DNA of 35,023 nucleotides from Microcaldota archaeon. Lineage in GTDB: Archaea; Micrarchaeota; Micrarchaeia; Micrarchaeales; CABMGC01. The stretch covers positions 1-35,023 of the forward strand of contig JAJZIU010000006.1 of assembly GCA_021810455.1 (NCBI GenBank), read 5' to 3'. The notes beneath the pieces are model-generated. The model was given only the letters and a program-made list of their open reading frames with translations. It ran no database searches and had not been told where the DNA came from. Both the position numbers and the translations under genes were made by a program. Shown piece after piece: positions 1-6,487 of the stretch; the stretch's first letter is position 1; each line of letters opens with the position of its first letter.

Positions 1-98
1 CAGCTCCGTCTATGCCTTCAATGCAAAAGAAGAATCCCATCAGTTTCACAGCAAATTGTAATCTTTATATACATGCTATGTTATATTTTTATCTACTT

Positions 99-173
99 GC
101 TCCTATCGTCTAGTCCGGCCAAGGACGTGGGGCTTTCAACCCCGCAACTCGGGTTCAAATCCCGATGGGAGCA
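99..173 (+). tRNA. tRNA-Glu(UUC), integration target of the adjacent element
   Basis: Acceptor GCTCCTA/TGGGAGC, anticodon loop CTTTCAA (TTC), T-arm CTCGGGTTCAAATCCCGA; upstream A/T-rich TATA-like sequence. Confidence 0.95.
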
Positions 174-174
174 A
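115..174 (+). repeat. Left att copy (3' part of tRNA-Glu)
   Basis: CCGGCCAAGGACGTGGGGCTTTCAACCCCGCAACTCGGGTTCAAATCCCGATGGGAGCAA, repeated at 6022-6081. Confidence 0.92.
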
Positions 175-1073
175 ACGAAATCTACGACGACAAAAGTGGG
201 TTCAAATCTCGGAGAAAGCGAAAGAAAGAAAAGCTAGGTGGGTTCAAATCCGAAAACGTATCCGAATACGGAAAGCTTATAGACACCATGTATTCGGTCT
301 TGCCCAAGCTAACGCATCACCAGATCAAAGAAGTCAAGCGCATAGTACATAAACAGTTCCTAAAGAAGTTCGCAAGGAACCAGCCTCCGAAATACGGAAG
401 CCTCAACAAAGGCTTCACGGAACAGGAGGTACAGTCTTTCTTCCGAACGATAAACAATCCGAAGTTGAGGCTATTATTCTACTACCAAGCGCAGCTTGGC
501 CTCAGAATAGGCGAAGCGGTAAAGGTAAACGTCAAGGACATAGACTTCAACAGCAGGGAGTTGAAAATACGTACAGAGAAGGCACATACTCTCAATACTC
601 TTATTGTCCCGATGCCTCTCTTCAAGCTAACCTTGGAGTACATCCAGCAGTACGAGCAGTACATCCAGAAGGACGGCTACCTCTTCTTCAAGGAAGAGGG
701 CAAATACAGCCATAGGGATGAGCCGTACCTAAGCACTGATTACGTAAGGAACAGCTTCCGGTACTACGTCCAGAAGGCAGGTCTGGACGAGGTATACGAT
801 TCCAGCGACGAGACCAATTACAGCAGGACTCCCAGAAGGCTGCACAGGTTAACCACCCACAGCCTACGCCATTACGCTATAACCAGCTTCGCCAAGCAGA
901 CTAACGGGAACGTGGTGCTGACCAGCAAGTTCGCTAGACACAGAAGCACGGGTGTAACGCAAACCTACATCAGCACAACCAAGCAGGAGCTATACCAAGA
1001 GATAGACAATACCTTCTCCCAGCAAGCCGAGAGGCTTAAACGGCGTATCATAGATATGGAAGGCCAGAAATAG
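165..1073 (+). CDS. Tyrosine recombinase/integrase (archaeal, probable C-terminal part of an SSV-type split integrase)
   Basis: RIGEAVKV, THSLRHYAITSFA, LTSKFARHRSTGVTQTYI fit the R...HxxR...H...Y signature; ATG lies inside the tRNA att core. Confidence 0.9.
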   Translation: MGANEIYDDKSGFKSRRKRKKEKLGGFKSENVSEYGKLIDTMYSVLPKLTHHQIKEVKRIVHKQFLKKFARNQPPKYGSLNKGFTEQEVQSFFRTINNPKLRLLFYYQAQLGLRIGEAVKVNVKDIDFNSRELKIRTEKAHTLNTLIVPMPLFKLTLEYIQQYEQYIQKDGYLFFKEEGKYSHRDEPYLSTDYVRNSFRYYVQKAGLDEVYDSSDETNYSRTPRRLHRLTTHSLRHYAITSFAKQTNGNVVLTSKFARHRSTGVTQTYISTTKQELYQEIDNTFSQQAERLKRRIIDMEGQK

Positions 1074-1079
1074 GAGCAT

Positions 1080-1367
1080 GTAGAGAAAAATGGCCTTTCA
1101 TGTAGAGTTTTTTGACCTATTTCGGCAAAATTTCGAGACGTTTGTCGTCGATTTACTCCCCCTTAGTCGTTTTTCGGCTATCAGCATAGCGGTTTTGCAA
1201 AATCGTGTAGAGTAAAGACAAAAACTCAATCGAGTAGAGTTTTTGGGGCATTTGAGTAGAGTAAAATGCCCTTTCCTGACACGATTTTAAGTGGTTTTCC
1301 CTCGTAAAACTCACCATTAGTCGCAAAACCGCATATTTCACGAGATTTTTGGGAAATCGAGTAGAGT
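1080..1367. repeat. Degenerate 154-bp tandem repeat with six GTAGAG(T) motifs (iteron-like)
   Basis: Motif starts 1080, 1102, 1207, 1234, 1256, 1361; spacing 22/105/27/22/105. ACTCnCCnTTAGTCG also recurs at the 154-bp offset (1155-1169 and 1309-1323). Confidence 0.7.
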
Positions 1368-1370
1368 TGA

Positions 1371-1555
1371 GCCTACGCCACCTCGCACCCTTCGGGTGCG
1401 TCGAAGCTTATGCTTCGGACGGTGGCTACGGCTGCTCAAAGAGGCGTTTTGCCCCCACCCAAAACGCCGAGAGGTGCCTTAATCTGCTAGGTTGCTAGCT
1501 TGGGAGCCCCTCGTGAGCCTTGCGAAGCAAGGCGATAGAGCTGGGCGACCCCAAG
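1371..1555. other. Highly structured noncoding region (possible replication origin or ncRNA)
   Basis: Nested stems: GCCACC/GGTGGC enclosing CGCACCC-TTC-GGGTGCG and CGAAGC-TTAT-GCTTCG; GGCGTTTTG-8nt-CAAAACGCC; CTTGGG/CCCAAG enclosing GCCTTGC-GAA-GCAAGGC. Confidence 0.6.
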
Positions 1556-1563
1556 GAAAAGAT

Positions 1564-1998
1564 TCAGAGTTTTTTATTTTGAGTAAACAGTAGGTGTATC
1601 GCTGCACCATGATAAGAGCCAAAATTGTTCTCTGCAATATCTGCTGGAACTTCGAGGTATGCAGACAGTGCATAACCTCCTTTTAATGTTACATCCGGTA
1701 TCGGTTCTCTACCATTCTTGTTAAAATTGTACTCAATCTTCTGTTCGTAGCCTCCGTTAATTATAGTTAGTATCAATTTACCTCTTTTGGCAAATTCATA
1801 GTACGGAGGGACTATTATATTTTCAAGAGTGAGTTCACGTTTGAATGGCACATAAAAGACGCCATCAGTGAAATTCTCGTGCTCTTCCATATGTTCCGCG
1901 CGTATCGAAATAGGCCATTTCGTCATGCCTCTTGTGTTACTTTCAGCATGCAACAGCAATTTTCTATATCCTTGTCCTTCGTTTTCTGATCCAGGCAT
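1564..1998 (-). CDS. Hypothetical protein of the integrated element
   Basis: 144-aa ORF with protein-like composition, upstream of and codirectional with the structured region; no family recognised. Confidence 0.55.
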   Translation of the reverse strand: MPGSENEGQGYRKLLLHAESNTRGMTKWPISIRAEHMEEHENFTDGVFYVPFKRELTLENIIVPPYYEFAKRGKLILTIINGGYEQKIEYNFNKNGREPIPDVTLKGGYALSAYLEVPADIAENNFGSYHGAAIHLLFTQNKKL

Positions 1999-2023
1999 TC
2001 CAACACCTAAATATCAAACTCTT

Positions 2024-2464
2024 TCATTTCTTCTTACCGAAAAGTGCATTTAAAACTAAATATGCTATTGCACCTACACCAACCAACGCAAGACCTCCAA
2101 TAATCGCATCCGCAGATTCATTTTTTATCCTTAGTTCATGTGTCTTTGTGTCTACAATAATGCTAAGAGGATTTAGAATATCTAATCCTATAAGGATATC
2201 CTTTGCCTTTGCGCTGACAGCCACTCTGGCGAGATAGTTTAGGTTGTTAAGAAAAGGAAATCTGATATTTACTACCGCTACATCTGCAACGTCGCCTAAT
2301 CCCTCAAACGCTCCTCCTAGAGATTGTGTTTCGCCAGTATACTTGACCCCTATTTTATCTGCAATATTCTTAGGAAGTAGGGTTACTGAGGCACCTGTGT
2401 CTATTAGAGCATCCACATTCTCCTGTCTAGATCCTTCAATTATCAATTTCTTTCTTATTTGCAT
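2024..2464 (-). CDS. Retropepsin-like aspartic protease domain protein with C-terminal TM segment
   Basis: ALIDTGASVTLLP active-site motif, ILIGLDILNPLSIIVD second motif, C-terminal hydrophobic IIGGLALVGVGAIAYLVLNALFGKKK. Confidence 0.75.
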   Translation of the reverse strand: MQIRKKLIIEGSRQENVDALIDTGASVTLLPKNIADKIGVKYTGETQSLGGAFEGLGDVADVAVVNIRFPFLNNLNYLARVAVSAKAKDILIGLDILNPLSIIVDTKTHELRIKNESADAIIGGLALVGVGAIAYLVLNALFGKKK

Positions 2465-2733
2465 ATTAGCACCTAGGCGGGGCGATCACAAGTGTAAGAG
2501 ATAGAGAATGGCAAGGACTATTATAAAAGCAATGCCTGCCTTTGTTACGCTCTTTAATATTAAAAAGAGAATAAGGAACACAATCAATGCTCCGCCAGCA
2601 GCAGCTTCAATCGGTGAAACTATCATGATATCACATTTACCCTAATTTCTCTATCTTCGGCCCCGTAATATTGTATTCAACATACATCTATTTAAAGCTT
2701 TACGTTTTATGTAATACGTAGTAGGTGAACTAG

Positions 2734-3435
2734 ATGGATGTGATGCAGCGAAGCAAGGGGATTGATATCTTGTTGTCTTTAATAGAAAAACCTAAATTCG
2801 TTCAGGAAATTCAGAGTGAAGTGGGTGGAAGTGCTACTACTGTCGAAGATCGCATAAATGAGCTTGTGAAAGAAAAACTTGTTAATGAAGAAAATGCAAA
2901 GGATTTTCCATTCAAACGGATGCTTCAGCTCACTGAAAAGGGAAAGGGCATTGCAGAAATGGTTAGAACAATTGAGGGTGCCTTCAAAAATAATATGTCT
3001 GATCTCAAATACAAATGGGTGATTGCGCTTCTCTATACTCTCGGGGAGGTAAGGGGCATTACAAGACTTGAAAAATTATTATTTATGTTAAAATATGACC
3101 TTAATGTAGCTATTAAAGATTTTTTTGTTTTTGCACCACAAAAGTATGGTCCATATTCAGAGGAGATTACTTATGCTACATTAGAGCTAAAAAAATTAGG
3201 GCTTGTTGAAATATCAGAAACAGTGTTTAAACCATTCAATTCAGAACAAGAAGAGGTTAGAAGAATGGACTTTTCATTAACAGAATATGGTAAGGAGACA
3301 GGGAAAGCAATAGCAAAAAGTATAAATAAAAATACTGAGGAATCCCTACAATCACTTAAAAAGTTTAACGAGATGGATCTAAAAAAACTTCTAGATTATG
3401 TGCATGAAAAACATAAAGATTTTGTTCTCTCTTAA
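2734..3435 (+). CDS. Winged-helix protein fused to a Panacea/YwgA-like domain
   Basis: N-terminal wHTH; then ITRLEKLLFMLKYDL...FVFAPQKYGPYSEEITYATLELKKLGLVEI, resembling the KLxK(L/I)xF...YGPYS...L..GL pattern of that family; next to R-M genes. Confidence 0.55.
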   Translation: MDVMQRSKGIDILLSLIEKPKFVQEIQSEVGGSATTVEDRINELVKEKLVNEENAKDFPFKRMLQLTEKGKGIAEMVRTIEGAFKNNMSDLKYKWVIALLYTLGEVRGITRLEKLLFMLKYDLNVAIKDFFVFAPQKYGPYSEEITYATLELKKLGLVEISETVFKPFNSEQEEVRRMDFSLTEYGKETGKAIAKSINKNTEESLQSLKKFNEMDLKKLLDYVHEKHKDFVLS

Positions 3436-3446
3436 CCTGTGATATT

Positions 3447-5135
3447 ATGAAAATTCCGCCATCGTCAAAGAAATTGCGTGGCTGTTATTATACGCCAATG
3501 CCTATTGCAAATTTTATAGTAGCTTGGGCAGTAAATTCACGTGGAATTAAAGTTTTAGAACCAAGTGCAGGAGATGGTAACTTCTTAGAATCAGTAGTAA
3601 ATAGACTAGATACTTTAGAGTCTAATAAAAAAGCAAGTTCCGGGAGTGTGGTGGGAATTGAAATTGATCTTGACGAGTCAAATAGAGCACGAAATCGCAT
3701 AAAAAAATTAGGTATTAATGAATCAGAAGCACAAATTATTACTACAGATTTTTTCAAATTCTGTAACGAACAACTTAAAACAGATAATAATTTTGACGTG
3801 ATAGTTGGTAATCCACCGTTCATACGTTACCAAAACTTTCCAGAGGAACAAAGAATAATAGCTTTCAATATCATGCGTGCTGCTGGATTGCACCCAACAA
3901 AGTTGACAAACGCATGGGTGCCATTTTTGGTCGGATCAACACTTCTTCTTGGAAATCACGGCAAGATAGGGATGGTAATACCTGCTGAGCTATTGCAAGT
4001 AAGTTATGCATCAGAATTAAGACAATTTCTGAGCGAAAGATTAAGCCGATTGACCTTAGTCACATTCAAAAAACTGTTATTTGACGGAGCACAACAAGAG
4101 GTAATATTACTTCTTGGTGAAAAAAACGGAAATGAGCGTAGGGGTATACGAACTGTTGAAATGGATAATATGGAAAATCTAGCTTTCTATAAACATCCAT
4201 CATTTTCTGAAGATGAATTAAAGCCTCTCGATCATACAAATGAAAAATGGACCCAATATTTTCTCAACATAGAGGAAATATCGCTTATACGTAAATTACG
4301 TTCTGACCAACATCTGAAGAGACTAGGTGAGCTAGCCGAGGTTGATGTAGGAATTGTTACTGGTCTTAATGACTTTTTTGTTATGAATAAGCAGAAAATC
4401 ACAGATACTAAACTTATAAAGCATACAATACCGCTCGTTTCACGTTCAGCGCATTTATCTGGAATAATATTCTCAGATACAAATTTGAAATCAAATATCG
4501 AAGAGAACTATCCTGCATTCTTGCTTAGTGTACCTAGTATACCTTCTAAAAATCTTTCATTAGAATTACAAGAATATATTGAAAATGGTGAAAGGTTGGG
4601 AATAAATAAAGGATATAAGTGTAGGATACGTAATTATTGGTATTCTATTCCTTCAATTTGGGTGCCGGACGGCTTCCTTCTTCGACAAATAAATAACTAC
4701 CCTAAATTGATCTTGAATAATTCTGGTGCGACTTGCACCGATACAATTCATAGAGTAAAGTTCAAGAATAATATTGAACAGAAACTTGTCGCTGCTGCCT
4801 TCTTAAATTCAGCGACGTTTGCTTTTTCTGAGATACTAGGTAGAAGCTATGGAGGTGGTATTTTAGAACTTGAACCTAGAGAAGCAGAGAGGCTACCAAT
4901 ACCAACAATAGGGGCATCTAGATTAGATATAAATCACATTAACAAATTCTTAGCAGAAGGTTCGATATATGATGTTTTGGAAGTGAACGACGAAATCCTA
5001 CTTTACGAGGGACTTGGACTTACTAGAAAGGAAGTTAAATCCGTAAGAGGAATATGGGAAAAATTAAGAGACCGTAGAAACGGAAGACGCTCAGAAACCA
5101 ATAAGAATAAGATGATTGCTCAAGCAGTATTATGA
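3447..5135 (+). CDS. TaqI-like gamma-class N6-adenine DNA methyltransferase
   Basis: GCYYTPMPIANFIV (motif X), VLEPSAGDGNFLE (motif I), DVIVGNPPFIRYQ (motif IV), C-terminal target-recognition-like region. Confidence 0.9.
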   Translation: MKIPPSSKKLRGCYYTPMPIANFIVAWAVNSRGIKVLEPSAGDGNFLESVVNRLDTLESNKKASSGSVVGIEIDLDESNRARNRIKKLGINESEAQIITTDFFKFCNEQLKTDNNFDVIVGNPPFIRYQNFPEEQRIIAFNIMRAAGLHPTKLTNAWVPFLVGSTLLLGNHGKIGMVIPAELLQVSYASELRQFLSERLSRLTLVTFKKLLFDGAQQEVILLLGEKNGNERRGIRTVEMDNMENLAFYKHPSFSEDELKPLDHTNEKWTQYFLNIEEISLIRKLRSDQHLKRLGELAEVDVGIVTGLNDFFVMNKQKITDTKLIKHTIPLVSRSAHLSGIIFSDTNLKSNIEENYPAFLLSVPSIPSKNLSLELQEYIENGERLGINKGYKCRIRNYWYSIPSIWVPDGFLLRQINNYPKLILNNSGATCTDTIHRVKFKNNIEQKLVAAAFLNSATFAFSEILGRSYGGGILELEPREAERLPIPTIGASRLDINHINKFLAEGSIYDVLEVNDEILLYEGLGLTRKEVKSVRGIWEKLRDRRNGRRSETNKNKMIAQAVL

Positions 5136-5144
5136 GGTAATAGA

Positions 5145-5858
5145 ATGCCATTACTCAGCCCAATGCCGAAAATAAATATACCGCAGTCTAAACTTGCACC
5201 GTTTGGTGCCAAATGGAAACAGAACGGCGGTAGCCTAAAACGAACCCCACCATATTCTTCATCGGAATTAGGTGGATTGTTTGATGATGCAATCGGAGAC
5301 GCACTTGCAAAGATGCTTGGTAGTATATCTGTAGTTAAACCTAATAGTACATCTTTGACACCACCACAACCAAATTGTGTCGAAGTTGGCCCTATGCGGG
5401 TAATTGGAGGTGTTAGGCCACAAAACTTTGATGTTGGTTATCGCCCCGATGGTGTTCGCTTTGCGCATGACACGAAGACGTTAAATGATACAAAAAGTGT
5501 AATGAAGAACTGGCAAAATATGGTTAATGATATATCTACAGAGGCCACCACTGTGCACTCTAGGTTTCCACACGCACTAGTAACTTTTGTTGTAGCCATA
5601 CCGAAACCTTGTGCAGCAAAAGTGCAATTATCCGCAATAACTGAGACACTTGAGCGACTCGCTAAAAGAGTGAATGTTAATAATGGATTATATATGGCTG
5701 AAGCGATAGCGTTAGTCCTATGGGACCCAGCAACTGGAAATATTGATTCGCATGCACCAGAGCCTAGCTCGCCACTTAGAATAGAAGGATTTTCAAAACA
5801 AGTTGAACAAATATATTGGAATCGTTATAAAGGATTGCCACCACATGCTCGTGAATGA
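5145..5858 (+). CDS. Probable type II restriction endonuclease (candidate PD-DxK)
   Basis: Immediately downstream of the methylase; RPDGVRFAHDTKTLNDTKSVMKNWQNMVND contains a PD...DTK arrangement. Confidence 0.6.
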   Translation: MPLLSPMPKINIPQSKLAPFGAKWKQNGGSLKRTPPYSSSELGGLFDDAIGDALAKMLGSISVVKPNSTSLTPPQPNCVEVGPMRVIGGVRPQNFDVGYRPDGVRFAHDTKTLNDTKSVMKNWQNMVNDISTEATTVHSRFPHALVTFVVAIPKPCAAKVQLSAITETLERLAKRVNVNNGLYMAEAIALVLWDPATGNIDSHAPEPSSPLRIEGFSKQVEQIYWNRYKGLPPHARE

Positions 5859-5927
5859 CTAATAAATGGGCAAAACTATGGATTCGAACTCTCACGAATT
5901 CGAACCGTCTAGGCTTAAATAACCTCG

Positions 5928-6081
5928 ATGAGTTATATGGTGGGTTCAAATCCGCTAGGATCGCTGGCGAATTTTTATCCAAAATTCGGTGCTAGAATGG
6001 AGCTAGAAAACGACGACAAAACCGGCCAAGGACACGGGGCTTTCAACCCCGGAACTCGGGTTCAAATCCCGATGGGAGCAA
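5928..6081 (+). other. Candidate N-terminal segment of the split integrase (intN)
   Basis: ORF MSYMVGSNPLG...GHGAFNPGTRVQIPMGA enters the att core in the same frame as the integrase (…VQIPMGANEIYDDK…). Confidence 0.5.
6022..6081 (+). repeat. Right att copy (truncated tRNA-Glu 3' part)
   Basis: Direct repeat of 115-174 without the tRNA 5' portion. Confidence 0.92.
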
Positions 6082-6123
6082 CTTATCTTTGGGTTTATTA
6101 TTACAAAAATGCATAGCAGAAAG

Positions 6124-6481
6124 CCCACGATTTCCAATCGTGGGATGAATGCGAATGCTTTTATAGTCTGCCGTCATAATATCATCAATGTCAGTTGCGT
6201 ATGTCTGAAATACATCCGAAAGGAGTATCCAGAATTAAGCGCAACCTGCGTCAGGTTAATGGACTGTGGCATGAAATCCACAGTAGGGAATGTTCCAGTA
6301 TCCATCCAAAGATGCTGATTAAGAACATGTCCCGATTGCATACAGACAGGGATGTATGCAAAGGGAGCACTGATACTCCTAAAAAGGCAACGCAAGGATG
6401 CTCTGCGACCTTGAAATTCGCAAGGTTCTGTAAACGTAGTGGTCATTGAATCACCCAGAACCCCACGATTTGAATCGTGGG
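6124..6481. mobile_element. Decayed IS200/IS605-family-like remnant with terminal hairpins
   Basis: Hairpins CCCACGATT-TCC-AATCGTGGG (6124-6144) and CCCACGATT-TG-AATCGTGGG (6462-6481); interior has only short frames, one (…DTPKKATQGCSATLKF…) vaguely TnpB C-term-like. Confidence 0.5.
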
Positions 6482-6487
6482 AGTATG

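Follow-up and report, generated by a model that had tools for sequence, protein, structure and literature searches.

A recombinase gene whose reading frame runs back into a neighbouring tRNA gene raises the question of where the protein begins, and of what becomes of that beginning when the DNA that carries it enters a chromosome. This question is posed by the left end of the stretch analysed here (hereafter the window), the first 35,023 nucleotides of contig JAJZIU010000006.1 from a 0.79-Mb assembly of a Microcaldota archaeon, where a tyrosine recombinase gene adjoins tRNA-Glu. We conclude, with a probability of about 0.9, that this locus is an integrated 5.9-kb mobile element belonging to a family found in Micrarchaeota, and that its Xer-like integrase carries the attachment site of the free element (attP) inside its own 5' end.

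The element is delimited by a direct repeat on the forward strand (115-174 and 6022-6081), whose two copies are identical at 57 of 60 positions and spaced 5,907 nt apart. The left copy is the last 60 nt of tRNA-Glu(TTC) at 98-174 (forward strand; ARAGORN; Rfam tRNA, 56.9 bits), the target gene as rebuilt at the left attachment site (attL), and the right copy is a 3' fragment of the same tRNA (partial Rfam tRNA match, 26.7 bits). Both the size of roughly 5.9 kb and the integration at tRNA-Glu between two attachment (att) copies, as proposed in a preliminary description of this DNA, are borne out by these boundaries, which enclose 5,907 bp between tRNA-Glu and its partial copy; G+C content is 40% both within and outside the element. 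At their 3' ends the repeats share a perfect 29-nt block (146-174 and 6053-6081) that spans the T-arm and the 3' strand of the acceptor stem, and the three mismatches (127, 128 and 145) all lie 5' of it. The window tRNA-Glu is identical at 77 of 77 positions to an integrase-free tRNA-Glu in a genome of the same genus (G001, contig C6), and the tRNA-Glu genes of G001 and of a second genome, G002, have the same divergent tmk-like neighbour as the window, with the integrase absent there. Because the G001 gene agrees with the left copy, the right copy would hold the element's own bases at the mismatched positions and exchange would have taken place 3' of position 145. The run of identity covers the T-loop most often (26-27 of 29 elements), and crossover is probably located in the T-arm.

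The catalytic part of the split recombinase, int(C), occupies 165-1073 on the forward strand (PF00589, E 9e-14, together with the alignment and an AlphaFold2 model), and its frame is open back to position 114, inside the tRNA. This frame continues at the right att copy, where it is open from 5919 and in register with the open reading frame (ORF) at 5928-6116. Joining the att copies anywhere in the identical block yields one stop-free ORF of 327 residues, reading MELENDDKTGQGHGAFNPGTRVQIPMGA followed by NEIYDDKSGFK..., in agreement with the earlier proposals that ATG 165 lies inside the left att core and that fusion of the two copies would lengthen the integrase. The missing portion, int(N), corresponds to 5997-6081 (forward strand) and comprises the start codon and first 28 codons, of which codons ~9-28 lie within att; it has an in-frame ATG at a conserved distance and an MxLEN motif shared with relatives.

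This layout is that of the SSV-type integrases (SSV1 D-335, pSSVi, pXZ1, pT26-2 and pTN3), in which attP likewise lies within int, the 3' end of a tRNA gene is targeted, int(C) comes to lie behind the tRNA with int(N) at the far end, and the enzyme measures ~330 residues; in our material the arrangement is seen in the integrated state only. The window att, 60 nt of tRNA-Glu, also fits the SSV-type site, a stretch of about 40-60 bp from the 3' portion of a tRNA gene. The first rival explanation is that the window enzyme is a true member of the SSV/pTN3/pT26-2 suicidal-integrase lineage that has diverged past recognition. Apart from the shared layout, a tree of the catalytic part gives this some encouragement, in that the window family and SSV1/pT26-2, each monophyletic, are weakly joined (88/21) on long branches, with their relative placement unsupported. 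Against it, PF00589 was matched by 22 of 22 aligned members and PF16795 by none, nor did PF16795 find a match in 31 related genomes, whereas the integrases of SSV1, pXZ1, pT26-2 and pGE2, taken as references, matched it at E 1e-42 to 1e-61. The conserved catalytic residues of int(C) are R114, K139, H232, R235, H259 and Y268, giving a box of R114..H232-S-L-R235-H..Y268 (HxxRH) instead of the R..KxxR..Y box of the SSV/pTN3/pT26-2 enzymes (PMC8371274). Profile comparison with hhalign assigned 97.3% probability to Xer-like recombinases and 0.3% to the SSV type, and SSV1 Int did not rank in the top 50 structure matches. Membership of the SSV lineage, rejected by domain, catalytic box and profile alike, is thus improbable, and the preliminary label of SSV-type split integrase holds for mechanism and layout, which recur in dozens of relatives at many tRNAs, and fails for family.

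By these comparisons, the closest kin of the window-family integrase are the Xer recombinases. The top sequence and structure matches in the PDB are XerA, integron integrase and XerH; archaeal XerA (Pyrococcus abyssi 4a8e and Thermoplasma acidophilum 5hxy) and the integron integrases share its HxxR box. The window enzyme is nevertheless no ordinary XerA: it scores 61.1 bits against NF040815 (XerA), below the curated cut-off of 220 bits, its core-binding part consists of two helices only, and it is tied to a tRNA gene, in contrast to XerA, which resolves chromosome dimers at dif and has no tRNA link.

We next consider how far the split layout extends. Integrase homologues are present in 29 of 40 related genomes and in 116 of 295 genomes sampled across the phylum, some of which have up to eight or nine matches, and the named homologues are nearly all from Micrarchaeota metagenome-assembled genomes. 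Layout was surveyed in 105 distinct Micrarchaeota homologues. ARAGORN called a tRNA just upstream of 74 of these, and several others abut tRNA ends that it missed; the targets include Glu, Gln, Leu, Ala, Val, Arg, Pro, Lys, Asn and Ser isotypes, with some uncertainty in the naming of intron-containing tRNAs. The far att copy lay within the DNA read for 32 of the 105 integrases, and in 28 of these 32 it had an in-frame ATG upstream. In 26 of the 29 elements with a called tRNA, against ~2.3 expected, an ATG of the far copy precedes the 3' end of the tRNA by 81-85 nt. N-termini are kept across targets, mostly of the MxLEN or MARN type (MELEN, MKLEN, MELET, MKLET and MARN): MELENDDK in the window, MKLENDAK and MELENDAK at other tRNA-Glu genes, MELENDDK at Val, MELEIDDK at Pro, MELETSEA and MKLETRET at Gln, and MARNIGVK at Leu. 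Given the conserved ATG distance and these N-termini, the window integrase probably starts at ATG 5997 (MELENDDK...), a revision of the preliminary description, which had begun the integrase at ATG 165 and the right-hand ORF at 5928.

The same survey bears on a second rival explanation, that of a classical pNOB8- or lambda-like integrase with attP just upstream of a complete gene starting at ATG 165 or later, the frame through att being incidental. Consistent with this, int(C) contains every folded part of the structural model, ATG 165 exists, and in 38 of 67 relatives an in-frame start of some kind falls within the tRNA part or precedes the core-binding helices. However, among intact int(C) genes beside a tRNA, 67 of 71 have an uninterrupted frame leading from the tRNA 3' end to the integrase, compared with 1 of 67 and 4 of 67 for the control frames, and at the far att both the in-frame ATG and the motif are conserved. 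Relatives do not keep ATG 165 (it is AAG in L051), which led us to reject it as the genuine start, and in 29 of the 67 genes no in-frame start precedes the core-binding helices. The pNOB8-type (type II) elements share integration at the 3' end of a tRNA gene and an int adjoining the tRNA, and their int remains intact and has an R..YxxR..Y box (PMC8371274); the window int differs on both counts, losing its start and first codons to the far att and having HxxR instead of YxxR. We therefore regard this alternative as somewhat less credible still. The least credible is that of a decayed relic, in which the island is dead and such frames as survive do so by coincidence. Although some relatives are pseudogenes or truncated copies, the reading frames of int(C), int(N) and the methyltransferase are all intact in the window, and intact integrases 92% and 84% identical occur elsewhere, one of them with swapped cargo.

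Several points weigh against a split integrase of this kind at this locus. The right half of the empty site was not seen, as the G001 contig stops 42 nt beyond the tRNA, and orthologues of the right flank in other genomes occur without the tRNA; of the empty tRNA-Glu site that the preliminary description proposed to look for in related genomes, only the left half is therefore recoverable. In this element int(C) might in principle begin at ATG 165, and the DNA conserved near the start (GCTAGAA and GACGACAAA) may owe its retention in part to protein binding. Neither a free circle nor an unsplit gene was found among viral contigs, plasmids, phages and the Micrarchaeota loci read, in databases that hold few free Micrarchaeota elements, and none of the short contigs checked for overlapping ends was circular. 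Splitting upon integration is accordingly something that we infer. One candidate for an unsplit integrase, L222, was rejected, its locus being the 3' half of a tRNA-Gln without its 5' half.

In the split-integrase reading that we prefer, the free circle would bear a promoter and ATG 5997, ~8 codons, the 60-nt tRNA-Glu mimic that serves as att, and the catalytic gene as one frame of 327 residues, from which active integrase would be made. The enzyme would recombine attP with tRNA-Glu, the T-arm being the probable place of exchange, and would restore the tRNA at attL. After integration int(C) would stand behind the tRNA, deprived of promoter and start, and int(N) and the promoter would lie 5.9 kb away at the right attachment site (attR), so that the reaction itself would cut integrase expression. 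Excision would need intact integrase in trans, as has been reported for SSV2 and pTN3 (PMC8371274).

In the AlphaFold2 model of int(C) (mean pLDDT, the predicted local distance difference test, 76), residues 1-29 are disordered and are followed by two helices and then the catalytic domain, and every folded part lies after residues 1-29. The split is therefore predicted to take promoter, start and a flexible tail and no folded domain. In this respect the window enzyme differs from SSV1, whose att lies at codons ~64-78, at the end of the N-terminal domain PF07935 (residues 7-74); the window att lies at codons ~9-28 in a predicted disordered tail, and the enzyme is without a PF07935-type domain. 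Exchange of the tRNA-derived stretch in this tail would change the mimicked target with the folded domain unbroken, and placement of att there may explain the many tRNA targets. The T-loop is translated in all three frames, depending on the member, and several att copies stand behind one tRNA in L055, L056 and L067, where serial integration is visible.

A 2021 review traces suicidal integrases back to one origin, of which PF16795 is the mark, and leaves DPANN unmentioned (PMC8371274), and in the open-access literature searched we came across no previous description of a split integrase from Micrarchaeota or any other DPANN archaea. Thaumarchaeal cryptic integrated elements are likewise small and integrase-defined, some with restriction-modification (R-M) cargo, and one of them, NitEve-E3, has a split SSV1-like integrase (PMC6563490); the window family differs in phylum and integrase and has the split design in nearly all traceable members. 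We consider it likely that self-splitting integrases arose a second time, in an Xer-like lineage of DPANN archaea whose att, placed in a disordered N-terminal tail, can be read in any of three frames, letting one enzyme family move among tRNA genes of many isotypes, and that the elements also share hairpin-rich noncoding DNA with a G/C loop in both orientations. A second, unrelated recombinase lineage of the same design suggests that the self-cutting integrase is a repeated solution. The family also offers a natural set of tRNA-derived tails on one catalytic family, which makes target choice and switching directly testable, and it reveals a class of small mobile elements that is widespread in tiny host-dependent archaea, whose mobilome has received little description; some of these elements bear defence-type cargo.

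The noncoding DNA 3' of int consists of two parts. The first (1074-1370), similar at the DNA level to other elements, holds six GTAGAG repeats (1080, 1102, 1207, 1234, 1256 and 1361), and the second (1371-1556), identified by profile matches and covariation, is a conserved hairpin-rich region with a C/G-loop hairpin at 1443-1468 and a GTTG-loop hairpin from 1486. Region 1205-1564 folds better than its shuffles (z -4.8). A hairpin-rich region of 150-330 nt is common to ~50 elements (L059, L057, L141, L146 and ~45 more), downstream of int and on the same strand, preceded by iteron-like repeats, which are GTAGAG in the window and other motifs elsewhere; it has no Rfam match. In the two-hairpin core (20 sequences), 99.4% of cells are paired and 40 are compensatory, versus 8.6 in shuffles, and G-U pairs are few; RNAalifold on the entire noncoding region returned 13 pairs only, because modules differ between elements. 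The neighbouring perfect stem of 9-12 bp (1443-1468 in the window) is closed by the loop CCCCCACC in some elements and by the reverse complement, GGTGGGGG, in others that are otherwise alike, with 36 of the C-type and 15 of the G-type (the other orientation is found in L128, L053, L055, L154 and L209, for example). This switch often separates nearest neighbours, as in a flip-flop of the hairpin loop. Both the scarcity of G-U pairs and the flipping of the loop speak for a role as DNA more than as RNA, and our guess is that the region acts as, for example, a replication origin.

The cargo begins with three reverse-strand genes: an ORF of 144 residues (1564-1998) without a Pfam match, a clan AA (gag-type) aspartic protease (2024-2464; PF13975, E 1.9e-9; TIGR03698 below cut-off) and a hydrophobic ORF of 46 residues (2486-2626) that, from its sequence, is a possible membrane protein. 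On the forward strand, a helix-turn-helix protein with an HxlR-like N-terminus (2734-3435; PF01638, E 2.7e-7), a possible regulator of the R-M genes, precedes a type II N6-adenine DNA methyltransferase resembling M.Eco57I (3447-5135; PF22837, E 2.9e-38; PF02384; full-length PADLOC MTase_II, E 1e-196). The 237-residue product of 5145-5858 (forward strand) is the probable cognate restriction endonuclease; it matched no known family, of nucleases or otherwise, in Pfam, PADLOC or further profile searches, and on one Mesorhizobium plasmid a 45% identical protein is encoded ~3 kb away from a related methyltransferase. Of the R-M system reported in the preliminary description, the methyltransferase is thus clear and the system as a whole probable. 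An element with an 84% identical integrase (L179) has the left 1.4 kb (82%) and right 180 bp (89%) in common with the window and a different middle, encoding MazF-like and MazG-like proteins and a DUF2075-type helicase (named by ORF inspection), which indicates conserved ends and swapped cargo between relatives.

Further observations concern other members and the att flanks. Four elements (L063, L181, L228 and L238) are tiny, with 1.6-1.9 kb between att copies and barely more than integrase and ends. Remoter homologues of the same class (L118-L126, family f7) start near GGGCCC tRNA ends partly antisense to int. A conserved integrase subgroup with its own start (VVAMKNN...) and no adjoining tRNA occurs in several genomes (L060, L133, L212, L213, L217, L220 and L236) and is maybe domesticated. 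In the window, the 11-nt T-arm sequence GGGTTCAAATC recurs at 151-161, 198-208, 240-250, 5942-5952 and 6058-6068, on both sides of att and within or upstream of the integrase frame, and GACGACAAA stands on either side of att (186 and 6012); both are possible candidates for extra integrase-binding sites. A 22-nt inverted repeat (91%) pairs 85-106, at the tRNA 5' end and its flank, with 1070-1091 at the end of int, and may be due to chance. Finally, adjoining attR, a stretch of ~350 nt (6135-6482) that is single-copy in this genome is bounded by hairpins (CCCACGATT..AATCGTGGG); its ends resemble L085 and L163, and it is possibly an insertion-sequence remnant.

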